DNA of 64,000 bases from Duncaniella freteri (GTDB taxonomy: Bacteria > Bacteroidota > Bacteroidia > Bacteroidales > Muribaculaceae), in the NCBI RefSeq assembly GCF_004766125.1, contig NZ_SJSA01000002.1:806001-870000 (forward strand), written 5' to 3'. The position numbers and the translations under genes were made by a program. Below the pieces are notes generated by a model, which worked only from the letters and a program-made list of their open reading frames with translations, did no database searches and was not told the DNA's origin. This document shows, one piece after another, positions 1 through 22,291 of the stretch (position 1 is the stretch's first letter; every line of letters begins with the position of its first letter).

Positions 1-879
1 CTGTCGGCATGGTTCAAGAACTTCACCCGCTACAACACCGGCTCGGAAGAACAATTCTGGCTTTCGGCTTTCAACGGCAGCACAACAATGTCGGACCGCA
101 AGAATTGCCAGAACTCCATCTTCATCAAGCGTCCGTTCATCTCGGTGGTCGGAACAATCCAAAAACGTCTGCTCACCGAACTTGCCAACGGTGAGAGAGC
201 CGCCAACGGGTTTATTGACCGCATACTCTTTGCAATGACCAAGAGCAACGGCAAGCCGAGATGGAACGAGGATGAAGTGCGCGACGATCTCGACCGTGAA
301 TGGGAGCGCATACTCAACCGACTTCTTTCGGTGGAGTGTGTGGTCAACGAGGAAAAGGAGCCAATTCCCACTGTCATGCGGTTCACTGCGGATGCCAAGC
401 GCAGACTCTATGAATGGCAACATGAGAATGCCGCACTATGCGACAACGAGATGAGCGATAATGTGGTCAGCTTCTTCTGCAAACTCGAAATCTATGTGCT
501 CCGGTTCTGCCTTATACTCCGATTGGTTCGCTGGGCTGTCAGTGATAAAGAGCCGCGCCCCTCATACATCGAAGATGACGACGTGGCAGGAGTGATAGAA
601 TTGGCTGAATATTTCCGAAGCAATGCGCTCAGCGTACTCACCTGCATCAGCGAGGAGAAATTGAATGAACTGCACCGCACCGTGTATGAGCATCTCACCG
701 AGGAATTTTCAACCGCCGACGGTATCCGTATAGCCGAGCGGTTCGGGATGAAAGACCATACATTCAAGATGTTCCTCACCCGCAATCTCAACACTCTCTT
801 CCGTCGTGTACGCCAAGGGTGGTATAAGAAGCTGTCTTGTTACTCCACTAACAAAGTTACTTCCGATGAACAGGATTGA
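1..879 (+). CDS. DUF3987 family primase/helicase-like protein, C-terminal part
   Basis: The reading frame is open from the first base, so this is the 3' end of a longer gene whose start lies left of the window. The visible 292 residues resemble the C-terminal part of DUF3987 proteins, which accompany relaxases in Bacteroidales mobilisable elements and are thought to work as primase-helicases in element replication. The Walker motifs expected in the N-terminal part are outside the window. It overlaps the next gene by 14 nt, which suggests translational coupling in one operon with the TOPRIM and mobilisation genes. The family call comes from sequence style and gene order, so it is good but not certain. 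Confidence 0.7.
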   Translation: MSAWFKNFTRYNTGSEEQFWLSAFNGSTTMSDRKNCQNSIFIKRPFISVVGTIQKRLLTELANGERAANGFIDRILFAMTKSNGKPRWNEDEVRDDLDREWERILNRLLSVECVVNEEKEPIPTVMRFTADAKRRLYEWQHENAALCDNEMSDNVVSFFCKLEIYVLRFCLILRLVRWAVSDKEPRPSYIEDDDVAGVIELAEYFRSNALSVLTCISEEKLNELHRTVYEHLTEEFSTADGIRIAERFGMKDHTFKMFLTRNLNTLFRRVRQGWYKKLSCYSTNKVTSDEQD

Positions 880-1651
880 TGATGCAATGGTAGCGGCCAC
901 CATGCGTGGCTACGACAGAAACAATCTGTTCGCTTTCGTGGCGGCGATAATCGGAAGTGAAGAAGCACAGCGGTTGATGGAAATGTATCGCGTAGGCACA
1001 TCGAAGCATTGGCAAGGTGCCACGGTGTTCTGGCAAATCTCGGCTGACGGTAACGTCCGTGGTGGTAAGATTATGCTGTATGACCGATTGACCGGACATC
1101 GTGTGCAGGAACCGTTCCCCCACATCAACTGGGTACACTCAGTGTTAAGATTGCCCGATTTCAAGTTAACCCAATGTTTCTTCGGTGAGCATCTGCTCCC
1201 ATACATCCGCGACAAACCGGTTGCCATTGTGGAGAGTGAAAAGACGGCAATACTCGCAACCCATTACCTCCCGCAATATCTGTGGCTCGCCACAGGCGGC
1301 AAGTGCAGTTGTCTCAACCGCGAGGCAATCAAGGCACTTCGAGGCAGAGAGGTGATGCTTGTGCCCGACCTTAACGCTACCGACGATTGGCGCAAGAAAC
1401 TGACGCTATTCGATGATTCGGGAATAAAGGCAACTCTGTTTGAATCGCTTGAACAGATGGCTACCGATGAGCAGCGTGAACAAGGTCTCGACATTGCGGA
1501 CTTCCTGATAGCCGAGCAAACTCCACACGGCATCCTTGAACAAATGATGCAACGAAATCCGGCATTGCGACAACTCGTTGACGCGCTACAGCTGGAACTC
1601 GTAGGCATCGAAGAATACAAACCGAGCGAAAGCTCACTGAAATCTGAATAA
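866..1651 (+). CDS. DUF6371-like TOPRIM domain protein
   Basis: This 261-residue protein has a TOPRIM-like core: an acidic strand-end motif (IVES) in the middle and a later LVPD motif followed by an Asp-rich stretch. It matches the DUF6371 proteins that follow DUF3987 in Bacteroidales mobile elements and may supply primase-type catalysis. The open frame runs upstream to 806, but I chose the ATG at 866, because it overlaps the previous stop by 14 nt and the extra N-terminus encodes the end of the upstream gene in another frame. A zinc-binding motif was not seen, so it is not a full DnaG. Confidence 0.65.
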   Translation: MNRIDDAMVAATMRGYDRNNLFAFVAAIIGSEEAQRLMEMYRVGTSKHWQGATVFWQISADGNVRGGKIMLYDRLTGHRVQEPFPHINWVHSVLRLPDFKLTQCFFGEHLLPYIRDKPVAIVESEKTAILATHYLPQYLWLATGGKCSCLNREAIKALRGREVMLVPDLNATDDWRKKLTLFDDSGIKATLFESLEQMATDEQREQGLDIADFLIAEQTPHGILEQMMQRNPALRQLVDALQLELVGIEEYKPSESSLKSE

Positions 1652-1652
1652 A

Positions 1653-2063
1653 ATGGCACAATCAAAAATCTCAAATCCTCAGTCATCTGAAGTGACTGAT
1701 ATTTTCAACAACTCAAATCTTTCCGAAACTGTGGAAAATCACGTCAACTCCAATGTCCAGCCAATCGCAGGACAGAGCGAAACCGCTCAGCCCAAGTCAA
1801 CCCGTCCCACCGCCAAGCAGCGCAAGAGCGAACTTGAAGATTACCGAACCGCTTTCTTTGCCCCGATTAAACTCGGCAAGGACAACAAGCATCAGGTAGC
1901 CATCAGCAATGACACGTTTGACCGAGTCGAGCGCACTGCCCGATTCTTCGGCGGTCCCGGTTACAGCGTCAGCAACTTTGTCGAACACATCATCAATGAA
2001 CACCTCGACAATAACGCTGCCAACTATGAAGGCTGGTTCACTCTAATCAGTAAATCGTTCTGA
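1653..2063 (+). CDS. DUF3408 family protein
   Basis: The N-terminal 50 residues are polar, low-complexity and probably disordered. The C-terminal half carries the conserved DUF3408 pattern: a basic segment, then KHQVAISNDTFDRVERTARFFG and a helical end with FVEHIINEHL. DUF3408 proteins accompany transfer genes in Bacteroidales elements, and the C-terminal part looks like a ribbon-helix-helix DNA-binding fold. It begins 2 nt after the upstream stop, so it belongs to the same operon. Its exact role in transfer or partition is not known. Confidence 0.7.
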   Translation: MAQSKISNPQSSEVTDIFNNSNLSETVENHVNSNVQPIAGQSETAQPKSTRPTAKQRKSELEDYRTAFFAPIKLGKDNKHQVAISNDTFDRVERTARFFGGPGYSVSNFVEHIINEHLDNNAANYEGWFTLISKSF

Positions 2064-2064
2064 C

Positions 2065-2082
2065 CACTGCCCCTCGGCAGTG
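2065..2082. repeat. Short perfect hairpin after the DUF3408 gene
   Basis: CACTGCC and GGCAGTG form a perfect 7-bp stem with a 4-nt loop, starting 2 nt after the stop codon. It is followed by AAAATGG rather than a T-run, so it is more likely an mRNA-end structure or part of the oriT region than a classical terminator. Confidence 0.4.
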
Positions 2083-2134
2083 AAAATGGCGAAGCCATCG
2101 GCAGCGCCGGTATCCGGATATTCTGTCTAGAATA

Positions 2135-2185
2135 GGAGGATAGCAAGGTAGTGGCAATGTAAACATTTCCGACCTTGCATCCTCC
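2135..2185. other. Candidate origin of transfer (oriT) of the mobilisable element
   Basis: The 185-bp gap before the MobC-like gene contains a long inverted repeat. Its left arm is GGAGGATAGCAAGGT and its right arm ACCTTGCATCCTCC, matching except for one bulged A, with a 22-nt loop that itself contains the palindrome AATGTAAACATT. An inverted repeat directly upstream of mobC/relaxase genes is the usual place and shape of oriT in MOBP systems. The nic site cannot be assigned from sequence alone. An alternative is a cruciform operator for the mob operon. Confidence 0.45.
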
Positions 2186-2248
2186 GTTACCGGGTGGCTG
2201 GAGTCCGTTCCCGATGGTCACAATGTCAAATTCCAAAATTCCAAGACA

Positions 2249-2614
2249 ATGACTTTCACAAAAAGAAAGAAGGCTCCTCCGGGAGCAACCGAGAAGTCCG
2301 GCAAGTCATACGTAGTCAGTGTCCGGCTCAATGAAGAACAGTATCATACCGTGCAGGAGAACTGTCGAAAATCCGGCAGAAAGCTATCCGACTTCTGGCG
2401 CCACGCTCTGCTCAACGCCAAGGTTACGGCAGTAGCCACACCCGATGACATGGCGATTCTGCGTCAGATCGGGAGCATGGCGAACAATCTGAACCAGCTT
2501 GCGAAGAAGGCCAACGAAGCGGGGTTCAAGCTCGTGGAGTGGTCTCTCAAAGGTCTTAGCAAAGAAATAAAAACTCTTTATACACGACTGTCGTATGATT
2601 GGAGGCATAACTAA
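2249..2614 (+). CDS. MobC/BmgB-like mobilisation accessory protein
   Basis: The 121-residue basic protein has a ribbon-helix-helix start (YVVSVRLNEEQYHTVQENCRKSG) followed by the MobC signature region with LRQIGSMANNLNQLAKKANEAG. Proteins of this family bind oriT and help the relaxase nick DNA in the relaxosome. Its 3' end overlaps the relaxase start by 20 nt, the typical coupled arrangement, and the candidate oriT lies just upstream. Confidence 0.85.
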   Translation: MTFTKRKKAPPGATEKSGKSYVVSVRLNEEQYHTVQENCRKSGRKLSDFWRHALLNAKVTAVATPDDMAILRQIGSMANNLNQLAKKANEAGFKLVEWSLKGLSKEIKTLYTRLSYDWRHN

Positions 2615-3569
2615 AGGAAGCTGTTTTTCCGGCTGCGTGGAGTATGCACTCGCGCTGAAAGAGAAAAACAAAGAGGCTCGTCTGCTTTATTCCGAGGGAC
2701 TGCTGACCGACACACCGAAAGATATTATCGACGGTTTTGAGTGTCAGAGACATCTCAACTACCGCGTTCAGCATTGGTGCGGACATATCTCGTTGTCCTA
2801 TTCTCCGAAAGACGCGGAGCGCATGAGCGATGAATTTATGGTGAAACTCGCTCTGGAATATATGGAGAAAATGGGCATCAAAAACACCCAGTTTATCATA
2901 TCCCGTCATCTCGACAAGGAGCATCCGCACTGCCACATCGTATATAACCGAGTGGACAATGACGGCAAATGCGTAAGCGACAGTTTCGAGTATTACCGCA
3001 ACAACGAAATCTGCGACGAGATGAAAAAGAAGTATGGTCTGACCTACGGATTGAACAAAGACCAAGTGAAAACTGAGCGACTTAAAGGACGCTCGAAGAC
3101 CCGTCAGGAGATCTACCTCGCGGTTCAGGCTGCCAAACGGACTGCCAAAGACTGGACTACTTTCCAACGCGAACTGGCACAGAAAGGCATCTCCGTGAAA
3201 AAGAAATTCCGCCGGAACTCGACCGAAGTCGAAGGACTGTCATACACGAAGGATGGCCGGAAGTTCAAGGCTTCGCAGATTGACCGCGACGGCAGATGTT
3301 CTTACGAGATAATCTGCAAGGCACTCGAAAGGAATAAAAACAGTCAGGCTCAACCGGCGGCATCCGCTCCGAAACAGATGCAATCCCACCCCAAACAGGA
3401 ATCCGGCGCCATTGGCAAAGCCATAGAAGCCGTAGCCGATATTGCCGAAAATCTCGGCAACGCAATCGGCGGCATCTTCCAAGTCGGACCTGCCTACGAC
3501 CCGGAAGAAGAGGCGTTCATCAACGAGATGAAACGCCGTCAAAAGAGAAAAAAAGGCAGAAGTTTGTAA
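2595..3569 (+). CDS. MOBP-type relaxase (BmgA-like mobilisation nuclease)
   Basis: This is the DNA-nicking relaxase of the mobilisable element. The metal-binding histidines lie in HLDKEHPHCHIVYNRV (about residues 105-120), and the N-terminus MIGGITKGSCF is typical of the BmgA/MobB group. A catalytic tyrosine is probably one of those in the first 35 residues. The C-terminal 80 residues are Pro/Gln-rich and then basic. The full domain is present and the length of 324 residues is normal for the family. It would need a coupling protein and mating channel supplied in trans, perhaps by the conjugative element in the right half of the window. Confidence 0.9.
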   Translation: MIGGITKGSCFSGCVEYALALKEKNKEARLLYSEGLLTDTPKDIIDGFECQRHLNYRVQHWCGHISLSYSPKDAERMSDEFMVKLALEYMEKMGIKNTQFIISRHLDKEHPHCHIVYNRVDNDGKCVSDSFEYYRNNEICDEMKKKYGLTYGLNKDQVKTERLKGRSKTRQEIYLAVQAAKRTAKDWTTFQRELAQKGISVKKKFRRNSTEVEGLSYTKDGRKFKASQIDRDGRCSYEIICKALERNKNSQAQPAASAPKQMQSHPKQESGAIGKAIEAVADIAENLGNAIGGIFQVGPAYDPEEEAFINEMKRRQKRKKGRSL

Positions 3570-4953: not shown

Positions 4954-7107
4954 TCAAGTATTTAACGATATGATATTGAAAGACAGCTGGTCATTATTAC
5001 AAATTAAACAGAGGAACCGATTGTTGTCCATCTCTGAATATAAGGTAGTCGCACATGATTCAACGTCAATATTTGACATTTTTGTTGAACCTTTAGGATG
5101 TGAGTGCCAATCTCCTATATATCTGAGAGAGCCTGATGTCAATTTTTGTACCCTATCGATCTCATTTTTCCAGCCTCCTGTTCCTAACGTCAGTTTTGAA
5201 TGGGTGCCTCGAATATCTGTAGGTACGAAGGTATGTAGAATATATACTACTTTCCGTTTAATATCCCAACAGCCCATAAGATAGCCTCCAGTTTCATTTT
5301 TGCCAGCTCGACGTGATTGAACCCTTATTAAATCTTCCAAGTCTTTGGGAAGCCGGACTTTCCACTCGGATGAGTCTACATCGTATTGTTTAAAATCAGG
5401 TAAAGAAATTCTATCTGTATGGCATGAACCTGGCCAATCATAGTCTAAGAAAGATAGATATATCTCGTTATTCTGGTTGTTATAATTATGATTTCTAATC
5501 AAATTGGATGCAATTCCGGCATGGGTAGAAATCAAATCATCTCCAAGAACCATCGTGTTCGAATGACATCCTTCGCCAATACGGACTTTATCTAAAGTGT
5601 AACTGGATTCAGTCTTGAACCATTGACAAAAATCCTCCTCATATTCTGAATTTGTGACGCATATACGCAAAAGGTACATATAGTAATCGGAAAGCCTCAC
5701 GCCTTTTGTGCTGTTAAAATATACCAACCCGACCTTTCCACCATCAGATATTGCAAATCGGACTATCGACTGGGAAAGATCTGGCCTATGATCATCCATA
5801 GCATGGAGAAGCATTGCAGATGCTGTGCAATCGATTATTATATCGTTATGTAGACTATTCGAGTTGATTTTTGGTATAACATCCTCTTCAACCGATTTGA
5901 TTTGCCCCCCAAATTTTGGTAGCATTATTTTGAGAAACTCTTTAAGCAGCTTGGCTTTATTATCCAAAAATCCTCCCATTGATAAGCCATGTCTTAAGTA
6001 GTTATGTGGGAGCATCTGGTCAGAATCTATAAGCGTCAATTTCTCAAATCCAGTTCTAAAAAGATGGTATGCTAATTTACTTCCTATAGCTCCACAACCA
6101 ATGATAGCAATATCTTTGGAGCCGACATCTTCTGATGTATTGCTCAGGCCTCGTGCAAATTGTGGAGTTGGCAAATCTATTATTTGGACCAACTGAATCT
6201 TATCATCAAATTTTCTTTCGACAATAGCATCAACGGAAGCCTTAAAGCAAATGTAATCTACCTTATTAGTCTTTCCTATAATGTTTATCGGTCTACAGAA
6301 TCCAATTTGCAAAAATATATATTCGTACTTGTCCCGACACTCTCTCACTTTGTTGATAAGAGAATCTGTATTCCAAACCTCGTATGTCTCTATTAAATTT
6401 AAGAGTTGACCTACTGTCAGGGGTCTGTCATAAATCCATGTTTTAAGAGGACGGCTGGCGCCCCTATAAAGTAACAATCCTAAAATTCCGTTATCGGGAT
6501 CAGATTTATAATCATGAGGTCCTTTGAATGTTTTAGAATCAATTTCAAATGTCAATTGAAATGGGTCGTCGTACGTTTGAAGAGTATTGTCAAACATAGG
6601 AAATCGGAAATAATATAAATCTGGCTCACCAAGGTAAAAAGGCTCCCAGCGATCCCCCTCTTTGGTTTTGACAAGATTCCCGTCTTTGGCATCAGTAAAC
6701 CATTTGATTATGAGACATAGAAAATCTTCAAATGTATGCTCAGCATACCAATCATTAAAGTTTTCCCGAACAAGACAAATTGATCGAGGGAATCCCTCTT
6801 CCTTAGGGTTTATATGAGGGAAATATGTAAATGGGAAATCCAGCCTGTCAGGGTAAACATTCAAAGTCATCTCAGGAGACTCTATATCGGAATTCCTTGG
6901 GCTTGCTATTATAATCGGTTCACGATATTTCAAATTAGAATTAGAAGCTGCTCCAGTAATAACAGAACAGACATAACCTATTCTGCCATCTGGCAAAGCA
7001 ACCAGTTTCTTGAAGGATTCGTCAAGAAACTGGTTGATAATGTTTATTACTGTTGAAAAGGCCGTAGCCTCCTCAATGGTCGGTAAACTATCTGAGAATT
7101 TAGCCAT
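4954..7107 (-). CDS. E2-E1(ThiF)-JAB fusion, ubiquitin-like conjugation/deconjugation enzyme
   Basis: Three enzymes of ubiquitin-like signalling are joined in one 717-residue chain. The N-terminal part resembles prokaryotic E2 domains, with a likely catalytic Cys at about residue 111 (PRSICLVR). The centre is a ThiF/E1 adenylation domain with GCGAIG at about 337-342 and the ribose-binding acid in LIDSD. The C-terminus is a JAB/MPN+ isopeptidase with a complete JAMM motif: Glu about 605, His 668 and 670, then Ser 678 and Asp 681 with the canonical spacing. The open frame extends to 7164, but I chose the ATG at 7107 because it overlaps the upstream gene's stop by 8 nt. All three active sites look intact. 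E2-E1-JAB fusions next to MBL proteins have been noted in comparative genomics of bacterial Ub-like systems, and an antiphage role is likely but unproven. Confidence 0.85.
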   Translation of the reverse strand: MAKFSDSLPTIEEATAFSTVINIINQFLDESFKKLVALPDGRIGYVCSVITGAASNSNLKYREPIIIASPRNSDIESPEMTLNVYPDRLDFPFTYFPHINPKEEGFPRSICLVRENFNDWYAEHTFEDFLCLIIKWFTDAKDGNLVKTKEGDRWEPFYLGEPDLYYFRFPMFDNTLQTYDDPFQLTFEIDSKTFKGPHDYKSDPDNGILGLLLYRGASRPLKTWIYDRPLTVGQLLNLIETYEVWNTDSLINKVRECRDKYEYIFLQIGFCRPINIIGKTNKVDYICFKASVDAIVERKFDDKIQLVQIIDLPTPQFARGLSNTSEDVGSKDIAIIGCGAIGSKLAYHLFRTGFEKLTLIDSDQMLPHNYLRHGLSMGGFLDNKAKLLKEFLKIMLPKFGGQIKSVEEDVIPKINSNSLHNDIIIDCTASAMLLHAMDDHRPDLSQSIVRFAISDGGKVGLVYFNSTKGVRLSDYYMYLLRICVTNSEYEEDFCQWFKTESSYTLDKVRIGEGCHSNTMVLGDDLISTHAGIASNLIRNHNYNNQNNEIYLSFLDYDWPGSCHTDRISLPDFKQYDVDSSEWKVRLPKDLEDLIRVQSRRAGKNETGGYLMGCWDIKRKVVYILHTFVPTDIRGTHSKLTLGTGGWKNEIDRVQKLTSGSLRYIGDWHSHPKGSTKMSNIDVESCATTLYSEMDNNRFLCLICNNDQLSFNIISLNT

Positions 7108-8245
7108 AATAGTGAGGCGTGGTAGCATGTCGGTTCGCCTTGGTTTCAGATTTTGTTTTGACAACGGGTTTTATTCCATCAGCCACAATCTCAAACACTA
7201 CGGGGTTATACACTTCATTACCTTCGTCATCTTTAGTTGTGGTACACTTGAAATAGTCCTCATCCTCTTTGTCGTCCATTGCATCCAGATAACGATTCTT
7301 GGCCTTCTGACAAGGAGGGTTGTCAGTATTGGGCTTTATGAGCTTAGAACTGCTCACTATATACCCGTTGCCTTCCCTATATGCTAAAAAATTTAGCGCA
7401 GATTGTTCCGGCTCATTATCGCGACTATCCGAAAAGAAGGTGTAGCTGCAGTGGTGAGGAGCCTCGAAAATATTCCATTTCAAATTGGTATCGTCATCAG
7501 TTGCTTCCTGAATCTTACGCCAAACTCTCCATTCAGCATCTCCGCCAAGAATAACTTTTCCTACATCGGATGTCTTGTCAACATCAAATTTAATCTGGAA
7601 TACTATACTGGTACAGTTTCTATCATTCCCTTCAATATCATCTTTGAATGGTGCATGAATGAAGAAACGATATTCTTTGCGGCTTGATCCGTTTAGAGAT
7701 TTTACTGTATCTCCCGGAAAGGCTTTGACGGAGTCTGGTAAATTCTTGATCTTTTCATCATCGAAATAACCGATAATCCTTATACGATTGCCATCCTTAT
7801 TCTTGTTGGCATCATTATTCTCCCAAAGCTTCATCCGACGTTCGGCTTCTTTTTTGAATGCCTTTGCATCATCAGAAAGTTCTCTTGAGTGTTCTGAGAA
7901 TACACGTGGAGAATACCATAGCTCACCGATGACAATGAGCTTGTCATCTTTTTCCGACTTAGACGGTGCATCCTTATGAGGATCTTTGAGAAAGAATTTT
8001 TCGGCAAAACCTCGGCAATGGTCTTGATCCGGATGGGTTAGAACAAAGGCATCTACGAATGGCAAACCAAACTTGGTATTTAACTTCTCGGAGGTTAGCT
8101 CCTTCCATACATCAAAGTAAGGAGAATCTTCTTCCTCTGCTTCCTGACGGAAATTGCAATCTACGATCATCGAAGCTCCATCGCTAAAGCTGATGAGATT
8201 GCAATCGCCATTACCGACAGGGTAAAAAGTAATTTTGTGAGTCAT
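7100..8245 (-). CDS. Metallo-beta-lactamase-fold protein with C-terminal glycine tail
   Basis: This 381-residue protein has the metal-binding signature THPDQDH (residues 70-76), a later GGDAEW aspartate and an APHHCSY histidine, as in ComEC/Rec2-type MBL hydrolases. The N-terminus (FYPVGNGDCNLI) is typical of that subfamily, which often acts on nucleic acids or nucleotides. There is no signal peptide, so it is cytoplasmic. The last 25 residues are Lys/Thr-rich, probably disordered, and end in HYYG. A free terminal glycine is what an E1 enzyme adenylates, and the E1-bearing gene overlaps this one by 8 nt. That it is the conjugated modifier is my inference; simple effector function is the alternative. 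Confidence 0.8.
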   Translation of the reverse strand: MTHKITFYPVGNGDCNLISFSDGASMIVDCNFRQEAEEEDSPYFDVWKELTSEKLNTKFGLPFVDAFVLTHPDQDHCRGFAEKFFLKDPHKDAPSKSEKDDKLIVIGELWYSPRVFSEHSRELSDDAKAFKKEAERRMKLWENNDANKNKDGNRIRIIGYFDDEKIKNLPDSVKAFPGDTVKSLNGSSRKEYRFFIHAPFKDDIEGNDRNCTSIVFQIKFDVDKTSDVGKVILGGDAEWRVWRKIQEATDDDTNLKWNIFEAPHHCSYTFFSDSRDNEPEQSALNFLAYREGNGYIVSSSKLIKPNTDNPPCQKAKNRYLDAMDDKEDEDYFKCTTTKDDEGNEVYNPVVFEIVADGIKPVVKTKSETKANRHATTPHYYG

Positions 8246-8247
8246 TA

Positions 8248-8958
8248 TTAATTAGTTTTAGTTAGAAACGCAGTATACACTGCATCTGAATATCTTTTCC
8301 CGTAATGCCGCATTAATATTAGGGCGATAACAAACGCTAAAATTGCCATTCCTAACGGAACAAAAGATGAAATTGTTATCTCATCATATATTAAACAGAA
8401 CAGCATACAAAGTTCGAAAAAGACTAAAATGGCAAACACAGCAAGTAAATTCCTCATTACTCCATAATTTGTAAGATTTAATGTCACCATTTTTTCATCT
8501 CGCACTTTTTCTATTATGCGTTTAACAACATATCCTATCTCAGCGACTATTTCTTTGTTATGTTTTCGATTCCTAAGGAGGTCCATGTCGTAATCCTGTT
8601 TAATCCGAATCCTCAAGTCTTTATCTTCTTTTGATAACTGAGATGCAGGTTTCGGTAATAACATGGCGGTTGTTGGCATTATCACTAATCCATTCTTCAA
8701 ATATATTAACCTTGACATCAAATCTCCGAGTTTAGCAATTATCATTGAAATGGGCCAGAGGAATAAAAGAACAACAGATAGCCCAATGAATCCATAAATG
8801 AATCTGAGGGTCTGAGAATAGTTGACAAAGGATTCATAGGATAGAATACTCCCATATCCCGCAATACGATATATTATGACACAGGCCAAGATAAAAGCAG
8901 GAAAAAATCGAGCCTTTAAATCATATGTATCAAAAAGCGAAATTACTTTTGTTTCCAT
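8248..8958 (-). CDS. Four-transmembrane protein of the E2-E1-JAB operon
   Basis: The predicted protein has 236 residues from the ATG at 8958; an upstream ATG at 9012 is possible but its extra residues fall inside the inverted repeat after the barrel gene. Two hydrophobic segments lie near residues 25-85 and two more near 170-217, separated by a charged cytoplasmic helical stretch. This 2+2 arrangement recalls the small membrane effectors found beside nucleotide-signalling and Ub-like defence genes, such as S-4TM or SLATT, but I cannot assign it to one. Its stop is 2 nt before the MBL start, so the three genes form one operon. A role as membrane-acting effector is inferred. Confidence 0.65.
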   Translation of the reverse strand: METKVISLFDTYDLKARFFPAFILACVIIYRIAGYGSILSYESFVNYSQTLRFIYGFIGLSVVLLFLWPISMIIAKLGDLMSRLIYLKNGLVIMPTTAMLLPKPASQLSKEDKDLRIRIKQDYDMDLLRNRKHNKEIVAEIGYVVKRIIEKVRDEKMVTLNLTNYGVMRNLLAVFAILVFFELCMLFCLIYDEITISSFVPLGMAILAFVIALILMRHYGKRYSDAVYTAFLTKTN

Positions 8959-8977
8959 ACTAAGAATTATTACAAAA

Positions 8978-9015
8978 GCCATGCCAAAGCCTCTTGCCTG
9001 CCAATTAGGCATGGC
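8978..9015 (-). repeat. Inverted repeat between barrel gene and 4-TM operon
   Basis: GCCATGCC and GGCATGGC form a perfect 8-bp inverted repeat with a 22-nt loop that contains further self-complementary bases. It lies after the true stop of the barrel gene and just before the 4-TM gene. It could be an attenuator or terminator separating the two transcription units. Confidence 0.4.
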
Positions 9016-9045
9016 AAGGGACTTATGTTATGACAAATGTGACAC

Positions 9046-9614
9046 TTAGAACTCATAACCAAGTTTGATGGAGATGCCTTCGCAGTCGAGTTTACGGGGG
9101 AGCGCGTGTAGTTCATGCTGGTTGAGCTGGTGAACCGGTCGAATGTCTCGAACTCTAGTTTCTCGTATGTATAGCCGATTGACAGAGAGATCGCTTGGGA
9201 GCCTTTCGTCAGCATTCGACAACCTGCTGATATGTTTCCATAGAAACCATCGTTGTTGGTTACAAAGTAGCCAAGTTTGAGGTCAACGAAAGGGGCGAAC
9301 TTGCGTTTGGTGAACGTGCCTCGAAAGTCTGCGAACAAAGGTATGCTTACCTTTGAGTCGCGTTCATCGAGTGAGATGTCCATGCCTTTGGTCTTATAGG
9401 ACTGCATGAAGTGAAACCCAACGCCGCCACCTACGAAGAAATAAGGGTTTACTTGATAGCCGTGTGTGGTGCTGATTTCAAAACGGCCCAAGTCGTAATC
9501 GCCTACACCGATTGTATAGCCGAGATCCGCGAAGCCATGATAGCCCTTGCTACTTTGGGCGAAGCATCCTGCTGAAACCATTATCATGGCAAGAAGGAAG
9601 AAAATCTTTTTCAT
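9046..9614 (-). pseudogene. OmpX/porin-like outer-membrane beta-barrel gene with frameshift near the end
   Basis: The protein begins with a clear signal peptide (MKKIFFLLAMIMVSAGCFAQ) and then alternates as an 8-strand barrel of about 190 residues. As read, the frame runs on to 8970 with a non-barrel tail. If one C is added to the run of five at 9096-9100 (G on the plus strand), the frame continues as RKLDCEGISIKLGYEF and stops at 9046, giving the aromatic-terminated last strand that the BAM machinery needs. The gene is therefore one base away from intact. It may be broken, phase-variable by slippage, or a sequencing error. Confidence 0.75.
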
Positions 9615-10502: not shown

Positions 10503-10534
10503 TTTGCACCTTTGGGAGAAAAATATTACCTTTG
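10503..10534 (+). promoter_or_regulatory. Promoter of the WYL regulator gene
   Basis: A -33 TTTG at 10503-10506 and a -7 TACCTTTG at 10527-10534 are separated by 20 bp, which fits the Bacteroidetes sigma consensus. It fires away from the minus-strand envelope operon promoter, so the 115-bp gap is a divergent control region. Confidence 0.7.
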
Positions 10535-10554
10535 CGTATCGAAAAACAATTGAT

Positions 10555-11574
10555 ATGCCAAACACGAAAAGTTCAGATATCCGGTATAAGGTGCTCGACC
10601 GTTGCCTCAGACGAGGCGGTTACTCCACTTCAGATCTTATGGATGAGGTGAATAAGGAATTGGAGCTTCAAGGATTTCCTACTGTCTCTGCATTGAATAC
10701 AATTAGACAGGATATGGATCACATCGTCAATTCATATCCGGAAATTAGCATTGTGGATAAGAAGGTCGGTCGTAACGTGACATATTCTTATGAAAATCCG
10801 GAGTCCTCAATATTTAAGCTCCCGTTCAATGATGATGAACTTGCCCAGCTTTCCCAATGCATGGCAATACTTTCTCGGTTTGAAGGAACCCCTCAGATGG
10901 AGTGGATGCACTCCTTTATAGAGCGTTTCAAGCTATCTCTGAACATTGATGTCGATGGCAGACAGGTGGTCGGATTCGATGATTGCCGCTATCTTAGGGG
11001 TAAAGAATACTTCTCCACTCTTCTTTCGGCGATATGCAATAAGAAAGTGCTGGCTATCGGTTACAAGAGTTTCCGGCAAGACGCAGTCAAGGAAGTAATT
11101 CTGCATCCCTATTATATTAAGGAGTATAACAAGCGGTGGTTTCTTTTAGGGAGGGAACACGGATACGATTCAATCTCGCATCTTGCGTTCGACCGGATTG
11201 AACATATCAACGACGTTACAGGGGTTTCGTATATCGAGAATAATGAATATGACTTCAATGACGATTATTTTTCAGATATTGTAGGAGTTACGAAGCATCT
11301 TGATCATAAGCTACAAAAAATACAGTTATGGGTATCTCCTTCGCTCTTTCCTTACATCCAAACAAAGCCGTTGCATGAAACGCAAAAATTGAAGAAGTCT
11401 GATGCAAACAGCTATGAAATAGAGATTGAGGTGCGCCCGAATTTTGAGCTTGAACAACTGATTCTCTCCTACGGGGAAGGCCTGAGCGTCTTGTCTCCGG
11501 CCGATTTGCGGAACAAAATTAAATCTAAATTAGAGCTGTCGATAAAAAATTATGATTCGGTTCACGAAGAATGA
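10555..11574 (+). CDS. WYL-domain transcriptional regulator
   Basis: The 339-residue protein has an N-terminal winged helix region (residues about 8-65) and a central WYL domain, with FDRIEHI and the preceding YYIKEYNKRWFLLGRE strand forming the ligand pocket. WYL regulators such as BrxR and CapW control phage-defence operons and are thought to sense nucleic-acid ligands. I chose the ATG at 10555, because the upstream in-frame ATG at 10504 falls in the promoter. It precedes the type I restriction operon by 51 bp, which makes that operon, or the divergent genes, its likely target. Confidence 0.85.
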   Translation: MPNTKSSDIRYKVLDRCLRRGGYSTSDLMDEVNKELELQGFPTVSALNTIRQDMDHIVNSYPEISIVDKKVGRNVTYSYENPESSIFKLPFNDDELAQLSQCMAILSRFEGTPQMEWMHSFIERFKLSLNIDVDGRQVVGFDDCRYLRGKEYFSTLLSAICNKKVLAIGYKSFRQDAVKEVILHPYYIKEYNKRWFLLGREHGYDSISHLAFDRIEHINDVTGVSYIENNEYDFNDDYFSDIVGVTKHLDHKLQKIQLWVSPSLFPYIQTKPLHETQKLKKSDANSYEIEIEVRPNFELEQLILSYGEGLSVLSPADLRNKIKSKLELSIKNYDSVHEE

Positions 11575-11625: not shown

Positions 11626-13632
11626 ATGACCGAACAGGAACTTGCAGGAATGATTTGGAACATCAAGGAGATTATCCGTGGTGTCTATGACGATACAGAA
11701 GTGGAGAATGTGATATTGCCGTTCACACTTCTGCGGCGGCTGGATTGCGTGTTGCAGGACCGGTACGACGAACTGTATCAGCAATACAAGGAATTTCCTG
11801 ACGAGAAGAAAGATGTCATGCTGATGGCTCTGATGCGGCGCAATGGCCTGACTTTCTTCAATACCTCCGGTCTGTCGCTCAACAAGCTGCTGACCCAACC
11901 CAAAATGCTTGCCGACAATTTCAAGACATATCTTGACGGTTTCACCCAGAATGTTCGGAATATTCTGTTGGCATTTACTCAGGAAGATGGCGAGAACGGT
12001 GACATCAGCCGAATTTACTCGCGTCTCGACCGCAACGACCTTCTCTTTCAGGTAACTGAGAGTTTCGTGAACAATGCCGACCTGCATCCCGACAGCGTCG
12101 ACAACGCCATGATGGGTACAATTTTCGAGATTATCATCCGTAAGTCTAAGGAAACCACCAACACCAAGGCCGGTCAGTTCTATACTCCGCGTGAAGTCGT
12201 TCGGTTGTTGGTGTCACTTGTAATGCACGGACGCGAGGCCGAGGTGAATACACTCGGAAAGCATTTCCAGATCTACGACCCCTGCTGCGGAACCGGCGGT
12301 ATGCTGACCGAAGGGAAACGCTATCTTCAGTCAATGACTGACCGCACTGAAATGAAGGTGTATCTCTTCGGTCAAGAACTCAACGAAAAGACCTACGCCA
12401 TCTGCAAGTCAGACCTCCTTATAAAAGGAGACCTCGACAAAGACCGAAACATCGCCCTCGGCGATACTCTCGCCAACGACCAGTTTCCCGGCGAGCATTT
12501 CGGCTATATGCTTGCCAATCCTCCTTTCGGAGTGGACTGGAAGAAGATTGAAGGCAAGGTCAAGGAGGATGCCGCCAAGAGTGACGGGCGTTTCTCTGTC
12601 GGTTTGCCCTCCACTTCCGACGGTTCCCTGCTCTTCCTGCTTCACATGATAAGCAAGATGGACCCGATCGGCTCCCGCATCGGTATCGTGCTGAACGGTT
12701 CACCGCTTTTCAACGGCGCTGCCGGCAGCGGCTGGAGCGAGATTCGCAAGATGCTCATGGATCGCGACCTGCTCGATGCAATCATAGCATTGCCGAAAAA
12801 TCTTTTCTACGGAACAGACATATCCACCTATCTCTGGATTCTCGACAACAACAAACCGGCCCGGCGCAAGGGTAAAGTTCTGATGGTCGACGCCACCCAT
12901 CCTCGTTATGCCCGTCTGCTCCAGCGCAGTCTCGGTAAGAAACGCTATGAGATACCCGATGAGGCTATAGACGAGATTGTGGGTATATATGGCGACTTCA
13001 CCGACGCCACACTCCCTGACAGCGATGACATAAAGGTGGCGCGACTGATGGATATTGAGGATTTTCTCTACACCACTGTCACAATCTATCGTCCCCTGCG
13101 CCTGACATATTCCGACATTGCCAAGAAAGCCGCCGAAGCTGCCAAAGGAGATAAGGTGAAGAAAGCCGATAAGGAGATACTTGAACATATTGCCACCATC
13201 ACATTCCCCGACGAGAAAATTAACGACGAAGAGATGTTTGCGATAATGCGCGAGCACTTCGGCAAGAAACTTACACAGGGCTTTGTAAAACTTGTGCGCT
13301 CGCTTGGTACCACCGACCCGGAGGCCCCGACCGTGTGGGCTACCCCCGGCAAACCGGAGAGCGGCTTTGTAATAGCCCCCGCACTTACCGACACCGAGAC
13401 CATACCGATGAAGGAGAATATTGACGAATATATAACCCGCGAAGTGCTGCCGTTTGTTCCCGACGCATGGCGCGATCCGAGTAAGGACAAGGTAGGCTGT
13501 GAGTTCCCCATGACACGTCTTTTCTACCGCTACACTCCCCTGCGCGACAGTAGCGAGATACTTGCCGACCTCATGGCACTCGAAGCCGACACCACATCCG
13601 CACTCCAATCCCTAATTTCCGAAGCCCGATGA
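11626..13632 (+). CDS. hsdM: Type I restriction-modification methyltransferase subunit
   Basis: HsdM binds S-adenosylmethionine and methylates adenine in the target set by HsdS. The N-terminal HsdM_N helical domain is followed by the AQFYTPREVV-type motif (TKAGQFYTPREV), SAM-binding motif YDPCCGTGGML at about residues 215-225 and catalytic NPPFG at about 297. At 668 residues it is longer than the usual 500-550, the extra part being a C-terminal region after residue 480. Its stop overlaps the hsdS start by 4 nt. The activity should be intact. Confidence 0.95.
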   Translation: MTEQELAGMIWNIKEIIRGVYDDTEVENVILPFTLLRRLDCVLQDRYDELYQQYKEFPDEKKDVMLMALMRRNGLTFFNTSGLSLNKLLTQPKMLADNFKTYLDGFTQNVRNILLAFTQEDGENGDISRIYSRLDRNDLLFQVTESFVNNADLHPDSVDNAMMGTIFEIIIRKSKETTNTKAGQFYTPREVVRLLVSLVMHGREAEVNTLGKHFQIYDPCCGTGGMLTEGKRYLQSMTDRTEMKVYLFGQELNEKTYAICKSDLLIKGDLDKDRNIALGDTLANDQFPGEHFGYMLANPPFGVDWKKIEGKVKEDAAKSDGRFSVGLPSTSDGSLLFLLHMISKMDPIGSRIGIVLNGSPLFNGAAGSGWSEIRKMLMDRDLLDAIIALPKNLFYGTDISTYLWILDNNKPARRKGKVLMVDATHPRYARLLQRSLGKKRYEIPDEAIDEIVGIYGDFTDATLPDSDDIKVARLMDIEDFLYTTVTIYRPLRLTYSDIAKKAAEAAKGDKVKKADKEILEHIATITFPDEKINDEEMFAIMREHFGKKLTQGFVKLVRSLGTTDPEAPTVWATPGKPESGFVIAPALTDTETIPMKENIDEYITREVLPFVPDAWRDPSKDKVGCEFPMTRLFYRYTPLRDSSEILADLMALEADTTSALQSLISEAR

Positions 13633-14903
13633 AACAGCAATACGATTCATATAAGCCCTCCGGCATCGACTGGATCGGGGATATTCCGAGCCATTGGAAG
13701 ATTCAACGATTAAAATTCGGCATGAATCTTATAAATGGCAGAGCTTATCTTCAGCCAGAATTGTTATCCGAGGGCAAATATCGGATTTTGAGAGTTGGAA
13801 ATTTTTTCACAAACGACTCTTGGTACTATTCTGATATGGAGTTGGAAGATAATAAATACTGTTCTAAAGGGGATCTTTTATATGCATGGTCTGCTTCTAT
13901 TGGTCCATACATATGGAATGAAGAAAAAGTTATCTTTCACTACCATATATGGAAGGTTGGTTTATCAGGTAAAATGGATAAAAAATATTCCTTCTATTTG
14001 CTTGATGTCATCACGAAAGTAAAGTTGAATGACATGCATGGTTCGGCAATGCAACATTTAACTATGGAAAACATGAATAACTCCGACATCATAGTACCTC
14101 CTCTTGCTGAGCAGGAGGCGATAGCGGCATGGCTGGATGAGAAGTGTGGGGAGATTGATGCGGCGATTGCAAAGGTTGACCGAGAGATTGAGTTGATTGA
14201 CGAATTGAAACAGAGCGAGATTTCGCGTGTCGTCACCCGTGGTCTCAATCCCGACACTCCCCTCCGCCCCTCCGGCATCGACTGGATCGGCGACATCCCT
14301 GAGCACTGGACTATCAGGAAAACGGCTCAATTATTTCATGGTATTGGTAGCGGCACAACGCCAACGTCTGGTAGTAACAAATATTATTGTGAGGATGGTA
14401 TCAATTGGCTTCAAACCGGAGACTTAAATGATGGGACTATTAGTGACACATCAAAGAAAATAACAACCGCTGCTCTACATGATTTTAGTGCATTAAAAAT
14501 TTATCCCCAAGGATCCATTGTTATAGCCATGTATGGAGCTACTATTGGAAAATTGGGGAAATTAAATATCGAAACCGCTACAAATCAAGCATGTTGCGTA
14601 CTACCTTACAGTAATGAGATCGATAATGATTTTGCATTTTATGTATTTAGGGCAGGAAAGCGTACGTTAATTAATTCAGCTTATGGTGGTGGACAGCCCA
14701 ATATTAGTCAAGATACTATCAAGTCTTTTAAATTAGCCCTACCTCCACTGTCCGAGCAGCAGGCAATCGCCGACTACCTTGACAAGAAGTGTGCCGAGAT
14801 GGATGGATTGAAGGCAAAACTCACCAAGAAACGAGAGACGCTGAAAGAACTGCGTCAGTCAATAATTTCGGAGGTCGTGACCGGCAAACGAAAAGTTATC
14901 TAA
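13629..14903 (+). CDS. hsdS: Type I restriction-modification specificity subunit
   Basis: HsdS recognises the bipartite DNA target through two target-recognition domains. Each half begins with PSGIDWIGDIPxHW (residues about 10-24 and 214-228), and each is closed by a conserved coiled-coil spacer (LAEQEAIAAWLDEKCGEID and LSEQQAIADYLDKKCAEMD). The 23-bp DNA at the start of both halves is identical (13656-13678 and 14268-14290). The recognition domains are visibly more AT-rich than the conserved spacers, a sign of domain swapping. Confidence 0.95.
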   Translation: MKQQYDSYKPSGIDWIGDIPSHWKIQRLKFGMNLINGRAYLQPELLSEGKYRILRVGNFFTNDSWYYSDMELEDNKYCSKGDLLYAWSASIGPYIWNEEKVIFHYHIWKVGLSGKMDKKYSFYLLDVITKVKLNDMHGSAMQHLTMENMNNSDIIVPPLAEQEAIAAWLDEKCGEIDAAIAKVDREIELIDELKQSEISRVVTRGLNPDTPLRPSGIDWIGDIPEHWTIRKTAQLFHGIGSGTTPTSGSNKYYCEDGINWLQTGDLNDGTISDTSKKITTAALHDFSALKIYPQGSIVIAMYGATIGKLGKLNIETATNQACCVLPYSNEIDNDFAFYVFRAGKRTLINSAYGGGQPNISQDTIKSFKLALPPLSEQQAIADYLDKKCAEMDGLKAKLTKKRETLKELRQSIISEVVTGKRKVI

Positions 14904-14914
14904 CTCGAAAGCAA

Positions 14915-15406
14915 ATGAAAAAGTTCTTAAGTTATATTCAGGTTGCATTATCTTTGATAGCAATAGTACTTAGTATTATTGCCATATGCGTAACATATCC
15001 CAGAAGTGCCAGCACCGGTCTCGACTATATTGGAATAATAGTAGGCATATTAGGTGCTTTAGTTGCGATATTGGTAGGATGGCAATTATATAATGCTCTC
15101 AATCTTAAAGACCTTGTTTTTGATACTGAAAAAGCCAAGAGAGATGCCGTCGATGCAAAAATTAAGGCTGAACAAATGCTCAATACCACACAAACATTAA
15201 CAAACGATATTACTTACAAGATTTCATCAATATCTGATAAGGTTGAACACCTTTCAAAATGCAATGATCGCAGTATTAAATTAATTGAACAATTTTCGGA
15301 GTTATCGAAGGGTTTACAAACTATCGTAAAGGACTCTATGGAGTCGTACAGATCTATGCAATCCTATATTGAAAGACTCAATGAAGAATTGGGTAAAAAA
15401 AATTAA
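14915..15406 (+). CDS. Small two-TM coiled-coil protein between hsdS and hsdR
   Basis: The 163-residue product starts MKKFLSYIQVALSLIAIVLS and has two membrane helices (about 5-25 and 38-58) followed by a 100-residue amphipathic coiled coil. The open frame extends upstream to 14789, but that part overlaps hsdS, so I chose the ATG at 14915, 12 nt after the hsdS stop. Accessory genes at this exact spot in type I operons include the PrrC anticodon nuclease, which guards the restriction enzyme. This protein is unrelated in sequence, so a guard or effector role is only a positional inference. Confidence 0.75.
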   Translation: MKKFLSYIQVALSLIAIVLSIIAICVTYPRSASTGLDYIGIIVGILGALVAILVGWQLYNALNLKDLVFDTEKAKRDAVDAKIKAEQMLNTTQTLTNDITYKISSISDKVEHLSKCNDRSIKLIEQFSELSKGLQTIVKDSMESYRSMQSYIERLNEELGKKN

Positions 15407-15491
15407 TAAAGACGAGATCCGATTTGCCACAGAAGAAGATATAAAGAAAATAATGGATGATATTTTTGGCAGTGATAAGGCAGAGTCATAA
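15381..15491 (+). CDS. Possible 36-residue ORF before hsdR
   Basis: An ATG at 15381 opens a 36-codon frame that overlaps the end of the membrane protein gene by 26 nt and stops 22 nt before hsdR. The product is charged and helical (RFATEEDIKKIMDDIFG) and resembles a peptide antitoxin or adaptor more than random translation. It is too short to be sure, and could simply be the spacer. Confidence 0.4.
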   Translation: MKNWVKKINKDEIRFATEEDIKKIMDDIFGSDKAES

Positions 15492-15512
15492 AAATTATAA
15501 CCTAAGGCACAA

Positions 15513-19079: not shown

Positions 19080-19093
19080 ATAATTTAACGATT

Positions 19094-22000: not shown

Positions 22001-22291
22001 TACAAATCTAAGATCAAAGGATTGTCTGATAATAATATGGATCTTCCGGTTGTGAGATATAAATTACATGGAAAGTATTATCCATATGAGGATCAGATGC
22101 TACTCTCATACCGTGTAATGATAGAATCGGCAATGTGTGCTGCTGAAAACGCAAGTGGTATTGTTAACCGCACTGATTTGTTTGCAAAGGAGTACAAGGA
22201 ACATGCAAGAATTGCTAATTTCTATCGTAAATATTTTAAGGAGACATATTGCGACATATTTCTCCGCACTCTAAAATATATTAACCGTTAA
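19094..22291 (+). CDS. druH: Druantia type III component DruH (YjiT/STY4851-like)
   Basis: The 1065-residue protein has no recognisable catalytic motif. Its length, its position directly before a 2030-residue DUF1998 helicase and its overall style match DruH, the partner of DruE in Druantia type III, and the YjiT/STY4851 family. The middle part (residues about 300-800) is beta-rich with repeated Ig-like strand patterns, and the ends are helical. It follows hsdR by 14 nt and precedes druE by 9 nt. The family call rests on gene pairing, so homology search would settle it. Confidence 0.75.
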   Translation: MSSIKDHSALAGILHSRGMEKVLPDKPLWKLKVSDDEYGQLKSTLIEHSDELDEFGMEAAICYAEWWRRDYNGNIPSKEDVAVEIGLDICRAGELYMAARMALQRNGFTFIHSIKRTEYFRTLLNQGGLPIRYIRNNEGNMGNFSRFLKGLVKELSSINYDWNNADSSVIRQFSCVSYLGDSFKNENIYDVSIQIARAIIMEENALLPYDDSDKAFAELTDSLKREYSRVRNGSRFRPLSLQWRLHLVDDDNACLYILPEAIKDLSSESIPGLNITSCYSFDVFVAGVLTGKYVRKETKFSDEGQAISAVYTRISMGPSREIRWNGEPVVEVKVRCDNDDRIFLTIAGSFAPNFDYPQVFQMLDNNIYVMSETGNSEKNIALFSESWSNLVSIPISIAGHNLFYEQFSQDLTLTDSSTGETVLLENKFTPYTVEFSNSYIPWLERSNFKLLSSVPIVKVYDKEKERVSNVKVKYRDRHGLDKEWRTLKTSCVLPSGIVDICVETPDSHRIIETFYCIGDIAFAHCNEGNMSTEIYFKSNQSFRAEIEIIEGADVINIEDNGWRISRRADTLSWPSECSFRIYRNNTPVLKLSIAIPFEGVVLTDINGGLVPRGKIISFANLAHYCIMSHGRGRRKLSVSYFSDKTEDDSKIKSLDGKVYDGIVSLIDYKPLIDRIFNLYGANSFNRSSCVTLNISGNPVFVRKFVLDSIVKDGMVTVIDNTEDNTDDYLYEGELFAFPVGDQLCIQDLFPVMLIRTNSATNTFAFPEDFCHKEVIVFSGAADKRRIVPKYYNRDDYDFDRVNRKEMQIDNISKWEILLADENVMFGNHWKEVCRAFKLCSTFNLPFSTHNALRSIARMPNLIAKFIIAMWLNGDRNVLEEEIDRFEQELEVALHWIPVNVWQESINDMMASIPEPMMQIIVMKLAEFTELVLGLLNATVTNELAQVMTAYITTQKIDKGQFISRSDINEYKSKIKGLSDNNMDLPVVRYKLHGKYYPYEDQMLLSYRVMIESAMCAAENASGIVNRTDLFAKEYKEHARIANFYRKYFKETYCDIFLRTLKYINR

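Follow-up and report, generated by a model that had tools for sequence, protein, structure and literature searches.

Which protein might be conjugated by an operon of Duncaniella freteri that encodes E2, E1 and JAB modules in a single protein, next to an MBL-fold enzyme and a small membrane protein? We addressed this question in a window of 64,000 nucleotides, i.e., the whole stretch of DNA that was analyzed, and in related loci from genomes, plasmids and viruses.

The operon and its enzymes

The three genes, all located on the minus strand (Table 1), were recovered by open reading frames (ORFs) and domain matches as the first-pass annotation had given them. The start of the third gene was placed at ATG 8958 on the basis of homologue P0124, which starts at this Met; the longest ORF begins further out, at 9012. 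The E2-E1-JAB gene has three candidate starts (TTG 7164, ATG 7128 and ATG 7107), of which the last was adopted as the presumed start. With this start, the gene shares 8 bases with the end of the MBL gene (ATGGCTAA), which agrees with the overlap described initially. Residue 1 of E2-E1-JAB is here the codon that follows ATG 7107, so numbers in the full protein are higher by 1.

Table 1. Features of the operon, in positions of the window; A5 is the E2-E1-JAB alignment described in the text.
Feature	Position	Strand	Conservation or remark
Third gene: small membrane protein, ~4 TM, 236 aa, proposed effector	8248..8958	-	
MBL-fold enzyme, 381 aa, proposed conjugated modifier (NF058524, 6A-MBL_enzyme)	7100..8245	-	
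MBL metal-binding motif H71-x-D73-x-D75-H76 (THPDQDH)	8018..8035	-	
Disordered C-terminal tail of MBL, residues 361-381, and stop codon	7100..7165	-	pLDDT; outside NCBIfam match
C-terminal Gly381 codon of MBL (GGC)	7103..7105	-	overlaps presumed ATG 7107-7105 of E2-E1-JAB
E2-E1-JAB triple-module protein, 717 aa (NF058523, 6A-MBL_cap2_3)	4954..7107	-	
E2 catalytic Cys codon (C110)	6775..6777	-	identical 45/45 (A5)
E1 GxGxxG nucleotide-binding motif (336-341)	6082..6099	-	identical 45/45 (A5)
Presumed E1 catalytic Cys codon (C513, GEGC)	5566..5568	-	identical 45/45 (A5)
JAB Glu604 codon	5293-5295	-	identical 45/45 (A5)
JAB JAMM motif H667-x-H669-x7-S677-x2-D680	5065..5106	-	44-45/45 identical (A5)

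Both enzymes score above the curated cut-offs of the 6A-MBL families (377.7 bits versus 320 for E2-E1-JAB, and 338.4 bits versus 220 for the adjacent MBL). By these sequence matches the operon is a 6A-MBL system, and thus a known operon type. The pairing of E2-E1-JAB with MBL, which the first-pass annotation gave as known from comparative genomics, is indeed on record, as row 6a of Iyer et al. 2006, listed there as uncharacterised (accessible part of PMC1779556), and in NCBIfam 2026, whose title for 6A-MBL (anti-phage) is the sole basis for an anti-phage role here. In the accessible parts of PMC1779556 and PMC13373217 the system is usually a two-gene operon, and the MBL tail, the Gly extensions, the E2-only variants and the third gene, which are additions of the present analysis, are not mentioned.

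The E2-E1-JAB protein matches Prok-E2_A (1.5e-11), ThiF (3.8e-13) and Prok-JAB (3.7e-10). Alignment A5 comprises 45 rows picked for spread from the window and 63 loci. Identical in all of them are C110 and H97 of E2, G336, G338, G341, D360, K383 and C513 of E1, and E604, H667, S677 and D680 of JAB; H669 of JAB (44/45) and R350 of E1 (40/45) are near-invariant. The full conjugation and deconjugation set originally read from the window (E2 Cys, E1 GxGxxG and JAMM) is intact and kept in 44-45 of the 45 rows. The fold nearest to the predicted model is Cap2, the only match listed that spans E2 through E1; BubCD and Atg7-Atg3 (4gsl) were also among the fold matches. The match to the Cap3 family NF050170 was weak (28.7 bits, under the cut-off of 200).

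The NCBIfam match of the MBL enzyme spans residues 7-357, with the tail outside. In alignment A4 (64 sequences), H71, D75, H76, D236 and H264 are invariant, and D73 is kept in at least 90%. The nearest fold is the MBL of ComEC, followed by the nuclease folds of RNase Z and RNase J; the structure model contains the MBL fold and lacks the beta-grasp fold of ubiquitin-like modifiers. In contrast to the ComEC/Rec2 domain, this MBL is a separate protein in a conjugation operon, it reads PHHCS where the compared ComEC chains read PHHGS, and it has a predicted disordered tail of ~20 residues (pLDDT 59/46/53 in the final blocks of the AlphaFold model). The 381-aa protein does end in ATTPHYYG, as first described; ubiquitin-like modifiers likewise have a flexible tail that finishes in a free C-terminal Gly.

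Related loci and the third-gene slot

The samples were the best 80 of 371 genome loci from an MBL alignment scan; 12 plasmid loci out of 60 rows listed for 250 matching records, picked by organism with their tails not yet seen; all 8 viral loci; and, apart from the genome of the window itself, 7 loci above the cut-off in a phylum search. A homologue search with the MBL found 1754 proteins in total. The MBL alignment scan took the place of a single-protein E2-E1-JAB scan of genome contigs, which gave 11 stretches, none of them confirmed. The MBL had no match in phage records, and an E2-only alignment had no confirmed match in viral contigs.

We counted 94 distinct MBLs adjoining E2-E1-JAB, referred to as linked. 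Left out of this count were window fragments or copies (L001, L003, L005, L008, L009), an open ORF (L093), duplicates (L081, L094, L107, L109, L115, L132) and matches below 90 bits. Edge loci (L018, L057, L101) were kept apart, as were the unlinked L065, L069, L075, L086 and L002 (a broken own copy). Loci whose E2-E1-JAB ORF is short or broken (L051, L077, L117) or whose JAB is split (L138) were counted as linked; the E2-E1-JAB of L051 contains an annotated IS3-family transposase. MBL and a conjugation gene are adjacent in 98/98 loci of at least 90 bits (94 with E2-E1-JAB and 4 with E2-only proteins), contig-edge loci and the broken own copy being left out.

The third-gene slot of the 94 linked loci holds a TM protein in 53 cases, a patatin in 15 and a second MBL in four, and is empty or unreadable in 22. 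L050, the locus on plasmid pSE11-2 of E. coli SE11, is one without a recognisable third gene. The 4-TM family of the window was found in this slot in 25 other linked loci by a two-round profile search, with L085 represented by a 97-aa ORF. A merged family of 55 membrane proteins from an iterative search was discarded in favor of the stricter two rounds, and its number is not used because composition may drive the merging. Since the slot holds unrelated proteins, the third gene looks like an interchangeable effector, as in CBASS; it is a recurrent slot, and its product is probably an effector. The suggestion of the annotation that the conjugation target is the 4-TM protein or a phage factor gains no support from these data, and they do not speak against it either. 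No constant ubiquitin-like partner was seen among the recurrent third genes (ORFs of at least 80 aa), all of which fall into the three classes above, and the proteins scanned in and around the operon gave no match to a ubiquitin-like family, in line with the annotation, or to a CD-NTase cyclase. The 15 E2-only cyclase loci contained neither the 4-TM family (0/15) nor the 6A-type patatin family, suggesting that the slot goes with the MBL rather than with E2.

Among the alternatives, the most probable one, although we regard it as unlikely, gives the MBL no role beyond that of a nuclease effector, with the 4-TM protein serving to export, anchor or inhibit it rather than acting downstream as an effector. 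The ranking of the nearest folds is consistent with this explanation, and so is L182, which has a 4-TM-MBL pair but no conjugation genes; against it stand the unrelated proteins that fill the slot, like the interchangeable effectors of CBASS, and the association of the slot with the MBL.

The C-terminal glycine and the tail

In all 94 linked MBLs, the final Gly lies 0-6 residues from the C-terminus, a range chosen after inspection of the data. Of these, 41 end in Gly and 53 have 1-6 residues beyond it (e.g., ..PHVYGEIF in L052), which resembles the precursors of ubiquitin-like proteins; apart from the Gly, the tails are unconserved. When the last 30 residues were shuffled, Gly was found at 0-6 in 62.4 cases on average (maximum 77) and exactly at the terminus in 13.5 (maximum 29). 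It should be noted that kin sequences are not independent and that the last Gly was counted mechanically (six loci ending in ..GNG or ..GSG have YG two residues further in). By these counts, the terminal Gly exceeds what tail composition gives over the whole set, with a start-codon caveat for the window copy. On the MBL tree, exact and extended ends switch at least 16 times, and the Gly is retained. A very divergent MBL with an E2-E1-JAB of its own (L185) ends in ..KEMGH. In 19 low-scoring control MBL ORFs, mostly ComEC-like and weak, one ends in Gly and in three the final Gly falls at 0-6; of these three, L030 turned out to have its own E2-E1-JAB and is therefore no fair control.

The best controls are four MBL relatives (L065, L069, L075 and L086) that pair with CBASS-type E2-only proteins; E2-only CBASS was reportedly described by Yan in 2024. 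L069 ends in ..IIKQPHCTND, and L091, 76% identical to it in the body, ends in ..VVKQG. L065 ends in ..LIKKPWCNTDD, and the CD-NTase of L140, whose neighbouring E2 belongs to the family found in L065, ends in ..VIQKPWCDC; the other two end in ..GNWCKS (L075) and ..HRFYGEE (L086). Of the four, L065 alone has the cyclase motif in its strict form, [KR]P[WYF], and L069 has a looser one (QPHC); [KRQ]P[WYFH] within the last 12 residues also occurs in 7/94 linked MBLs, and Cys in the last 8 residues occurs in 0/94. MBLs beside E2-only proteins have other tails, two of them resembling those of CBASS cyclases, and in these comparisons the tail type is found to follow the conjugating enzyme and not the fold. 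The kept Gly, the extensions and the partner-specific tails support, at the level of sequence, the original suggestion that the MBL itself may be the conjugated modifier.

A different outcome of the E1 reaction at the MBL C-terminus, namely lipid attachment (Atg8-like) or another modification in place of protein conjugation, is improbable in our estimation. Some tails consist of a single Gly followed by one to few residues (e.g., ..GFGR in L046) and resemble Atg8 precursors, the partners are often membrane proteins or phospholipase-like, and the fold matches include Atg7-Atg3; however, the isopeptidase-type JAB motif is intact. The available part of the CBASS study (Jenson et al., PMC10097602) leaves lipid open for cGAS too, but reports conjugates mostly on Lys.

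The terminal Gly could also be a by-product of gene overlap, without a conjugation role, as T-ATG-G at the E2-E1-JAB start forces Tyr-Gly (or His/Asn-Gly) in the frame of the MBL gene. Indeed, the Gly codon overlaps a possible downstream start codon in 41/94 linked loci (YG in 32 of the 41), including the window, whose Gly alone proves nothing because its codon overlaps the presumed start of E2-E1-JAB. However, the 53 loci without such a start codon all keep Gly at 0-6 (shuffle maximum 48), with 25 exact ends versus a shuffle maximum of 18. Their Gly is preceded by Ala (27), Gln (14), His (7), Phe (2), Ser (2) or Leu (1), and the seven His-Gly ends hold no ATG because every His is encoded by CAC. 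Ten representatives of these loci with under 50% identity are inside the shuffle range, for Gly at 0-6 (10/10; mean 6.7, maximum 10) and for exact ends (4; mean 1.4, maximum 6), because their tails are Gly-rich. The persistence of Gly in non-overlapping loci speaks, in part, against this explanation, which we consider very unlikely, and the claim that operon-linked MBLs keep a Gly at or near the C-terminus stands.

There is equally little to recommend a ubiquitin-like modifier encoded elsewhere, with the MBL as target or regulator of the conjugation enzyme: the catalytic residues are kept and a modifier in trans would escape a survey of the neighbourhood, but the constant adjacency of the MBL, the lack of a ubiquitin-like match in scanned adjacent proteins, the tail type that tracks the enzyme, as expected for an E1/E2 substrate, and the closest fold, that of Cap2, whose own conjugated protein is an enzyme and not a ubiquitin, all argue against it.

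A probable CBASS-like conjugation cycle

We consider it quite probable that the operon runs a CBASS-like conjugation cycle, in which a ComEC-type MBL replaces the CD-NTase of type II CBASS and serves as the modifier. By analogy, E1 would adenylate the terminal Gly of the MBL and take it up on Cys513, from where the MBL would pass as a thioester to Cys110 of E2; E2 would attach the MBL C-terminus to an acceptor amine, and JAB would be able to undo this bond. More tentatively, JAB might trim the short extensions to leave an MBL ending in Gly (the window copy already does), conjugation might control or localise the MBL's own hydrolase activity, and an MBL product or state might activate the adjacent membrane effector, here the 4-TM protein. 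Processing must be assumed because the encoded C-terminus is not Gly in over half of the linked MBLs, which sets them apart from the Cap2-linked cGAS proteins in the accessible part of PMC10097602. In that study, the conjugation of cGAS by Cap2 via a C-terminal Gly or Ala was demonstrated by experiment. The same source supplied the tails of Cap2-linked CD-NTases because our own Cap3 scan (1e-30; 0/395 genomes) was uninformative, its controls being likewise empty. The idea of the MBL as modifier was not found in the reachable literature, which excludes preprints and most subscription papers, and may already be published.

The operon shares with type II CBASS a Cap2-like E2-E1 fold, a JAB with JAMM residues, a Gly-ended non-ubiquitin enzyme beside them and an interchangeable third gene; the E2-only MBL form additionally has E2 families in common with CBASS, and two of its MBLs also share the tail type. 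It differs in having an MBL hydrolase instead of a nucleotide cyclase, a JAB fused to E1, whereas Cap3 is separate, and a Gly often followed by 1-6 residues. Bil/Bub defence operons likewise have E1, E2 and JAB activities; however, they carry a ubiquitin-like modifier, and none of the proteins scanned here matches a ubiquitin-like family.

It is possible, although we would not yet favor it, that the E2(-E1-JAB) cassette is a free-standing immune module fitted via a short C-terminal peptide alone to such unrelated signalling enzymes as CD-NTases, Pycsar-type cyclases and ComEC-type MBLs, and that in the MBL branch the precursor is often trimmed to Gly by JAB and a non-cyclic-nucleotide signal opens its own effectors (the 4-TM family and 6A-type patatins). 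If the MBL is the modifier, a modifier would need to be neither ubiquitin-like nor a nucleotide cyclase, and any hydrolase that carries the right tail would be enough; one conjugation machinery would have been transferred by bacteria among immune enzymes that are unrelated, and a few C-terminal residues would predict the modifier of an E1/E2 operon. An operon type listed as uncharacterised in 2006 would then become directly testable by one truncation.

The operon in the window and its surroundings

A compact operon is formed by three minus-strand genes, which encode a membrane protein, an MBL-fold enzyme and an E2-E1-JAB protein. Its type is already known, because the MBL and E2-E1-JAB proteins both score above the curated cut-offs of the NCBIfam 'anti-phage 6A-MBL system' models, a name shared with row 6a of Iyer et al. 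2006 (PMC1779556), where the triple-module protein, termed a specialized version, is 'almost always next to' a metallo-beta-lactamase; the available part of that paper gives no mechanism for the row 6a operon.

Features of the operon and its neighbours, in window positions
Feature	Position	Strand	Remark
NikA-like/MobC	2249-2614	+	mobilisation gene
Relaxase	2595-3569	+	mobilisation gene
E2-E1-JAB protein, 717 aa	likely ATG 7107, to 4954	-	ORF and domain analysis
MBL-fold enzyme, 381 aa	8245..7100	-	ORF and domain analysis
Small membrane protein (third gene)	8958..8248	-	ORF analysis
Outer-membrane-barrel-like ORF	8970-9614	-	frame ends oddly, ..AWLL
WYL-domain gene	10504-11574	+	divergent from operon, three small genes between
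HsdM, HsdS and restriction subunit (type I restriction)	within 11626-29777, restriction subunit ending at 19079	+	
DruH (Druantia type III pair)	19094-22291	+	
DruE (Druantia type III pair)	22301-28393	+	
Fic-like gene	after DruE, within 11626-29777	+	

Plus-strand DUF3987, DUF6371 and DUF3408 genes adjoin the operon together with the mobilisation genes (88-3569), which suggests a mobilisable element, and a plus-strand defence island (11626-29777) lies beyond the WYL gene. A WYL gene is directly divergent from the MBL gene in four of the 12 plasmid loci (L043, L045, L050, L051), an arrangement comparable to the regulation of CBASS by CapW. Shortly before the end of the barrel-like ORF, another frame reads ..KLGYEF, which we take to be a typical barrel end; the ORF seems to have a broken frame near its 3' end. 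The same genome (G000) has a second operon copy on contig C3 (1-5941; L002, L004). Compared with the window over two stretches, it shows 0 mismatches but 10 gap openings in one stretch and 5 in the other; its MBL tail is broken, as is its E2-E1-JAB frame. This is probably a duplicate, uncorrected contig, and possibly a decaying copy of the operon.

The C-terminal glycine of operon-linked MBL proteins

The first-pass annotation had proposed that the MBL enzyme may itself be the conjugated modifier, attached through its C-terminal glycine, and had named the conservation of this glycine among operon-linked MBL proteins as a check. We gathered MBL relatives by MBL similarity alone, irrespective of neighbours, from the best 80 of 371 genome loci, 8 viral contig loci, 12 plasmid loci and the loci of a phylum search (cut-off exceeded in 8 of 395 genomes); removal of duplicates and fragments left 94 distinct MBL proteins encoded directly before an E2-E1-JAB gene ("linked"). 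The glycine is kept: the last one lies 0-6 residues from the C-terminus in all 94, being exactly terminal in 41 and having 1-6 further residues after it in 53. When the last 30 residues of each protein were shuffled, the mean was 62.4 (maximum 77) for the 0-6 range, which was chosen after the data had been seen, and 13.5 (maximum 29) for the exact count, which is independent of that choice. The preceding residue is Tyr (32), Ala (27), Gln (14), His (9), Asn (5) or another (7), and apart from the glycine the tail shows little conservation across the family. The best 120 of 1754 database homologues, a set of closer relatives outside the start-codon comparison described below, comprise 74 proteins with a terminal Gly, 44 extended by 1 or 3 residues, and two odd ones (P0034, P0045) that appear truncated or shifted.

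The E2-E1-JAB gene often begins within the end of the MBL gene, where T-ATG-G, read in the MBL frame, gives Tyr-Gly. In 41 of the 94 loci, the window among them, the Gly codon overlaps a possible start codon, and there the glycine could be a by-product of the downstream start; the window's own glycine, taken alone, is proof of nothing. The 53 loci without overlap rule this out for themselves, and all 53 still have the glycine at 0-6 (shuffle maximum 48), exactly terminal in 25 (shuffle maximum 18). However, for 10 no-overlap representatives below 50% identity, both the 0-6 count (10 of 10; maximum 10) and the four exact ends (maximum 6) are within the shuffle range, because the no-overlap tails are rich in Gly. 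The general conclusion that the glycine is kept thus depends on two things: the larger set, which consists of related proteins, and the evidence that the tail follows the enzyme.

By a quick method, at least 16 switches between exact and extended ends are counted on the MBL tree, with a Gly staying throughout, which is the pattern of a putative precursor trimmed to Gly; the JAB domain fused to E1 would be the obvious candidate protease. Conversely, Cap2/Cap3-linked cGAS ends in Gly or Ala already as encoded (PMC10097602), unlike the extended MBL proteins.

One low-scoring MBL (L030; tail ..KEMGH) was initially counted as a control. Further reading of this locus (L185) revealed its own E2-E1-JAB protein (787 aa), intact at the checked positions except for E2 His97 -> Ser and E1 Arg350 -> Lys, and a 6A-type patatin nearby. 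The sequence of this MBL is remote from the others, its Gly is again one residue from the end, and the ATG of the next gene is positioned after that Gly. A 6A-like operon at L138 (7136-9512) encodes an E2-E1 protein (628 aa, Prok-E2_B), a separate JAB (182 aa) and an MBL ending ..GGGGYA.

Tail type and conjugating enzyme

Four MBL relatives lack E2-E1-JAB (L065, L069, L075, L086) and are each followed instead by an E2-only protein that belongs to CBASS families, with PADLOC E2 models matching at 2.2e-42 or better. L069 and L091 share 76% identity in the MBL body, but the L091 protein, which stands beside E2-E1-JAB, has the tail ..VVKQG; the L069 tail is ..IIKQPHCTND, and the remaining three are ..LIKKPWCNTDD (L065), ..GNWCKS (L075) and ..HRFYGEE (L086). 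A search for the E2-only family (10 of 395 class genomes, 9 of 395 phylum genomes) yielded 17 distinct loci. Family models, applied to 10 of the proteins upstream of E2, identify each as a nucleotide cyclase (seven CD-NTases, three Pycsar-type PycC), and 16 of the 17 upstream proteins contain [KR]P[WYF] in the last 12 residues (e.g., L140, ..VIQKPWCDC). This motif is present in strict form in one of the four E2-only MBL proteins (L065) and in a looser form in L069; [KRQ]P[WYFH] is found in 7 of the 94 linked MBL proteins, and none of the 94 has Cys in the last 8 residues.

Judged by these motifs, two E2-only MBL proteins bear the tail type of the cyclases paired with the same E2 family. In our view, this shared tail type gives the strongest indication both that the conjugating enzyme would act on the tail and that the MBL would occupy the place of the cyclase in CBASS. 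E2-only CBASS reportedly processes and conjugates the C-terminus of its cyclase. On sequence evidence, the proposal that the MBL is the modifier withstood the tests suggested with it and gained two further lines of support.

CBASS-family E2-only proteins directly behind PycC cyclases at L144, L149 and L153, with the PycC tails ..SKPYFY, ..SKPYFNYG and ..NKPYFNEGKNKT, suggest that Pycsar cyclases are conjugated too.

Third genes and comparison with CBASS

A recognisable third gene is present in 72 of the 94 linked loci (downstream in 54, upstream in 18), with none adjacent or unreadable in 22. It encodes a membrane protein, as called by our own simple hydropathy rule, in 53 loci (25 of them, the window included, of the window's 4-TM family), a patatin in 15 and a second MBL in four. 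These counts cover direct neighbours and are a lower bound, since the 4-TM family also occurs one gene further upstream of the MBL at L079 (3309-4115) and L090 (39-866). The same family adjoins the E2-only MBL at L069, and the MBL at L182 without any conjugation gene; of the 17 E2-only cyclase loci, 15 were inspected over 6-8 kb each, and none of the 15 has this family or the 6A-type patatin. The putative effector is thus tied to the MBL, and the tail to the E2.

At L182 (3252-5034), the MBL and 4-TM genes stand behind a SIR2-HerA pair, and at L184 (2322-4736) a patatin accompanies the MBL, conjugation genes being absent from both stretches read. Both may be minimal systems of an MBL and its effector, comparable to type I CBASS.

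Compared to type II CBASS, the 6A-MBL operon would conjugate in a similar way; however, it has no cyclase and is therefore not CBASS. Tentatively, the MBL may produce or govern a signal that acts on its own effectors, with conjugation adding a layer of control.
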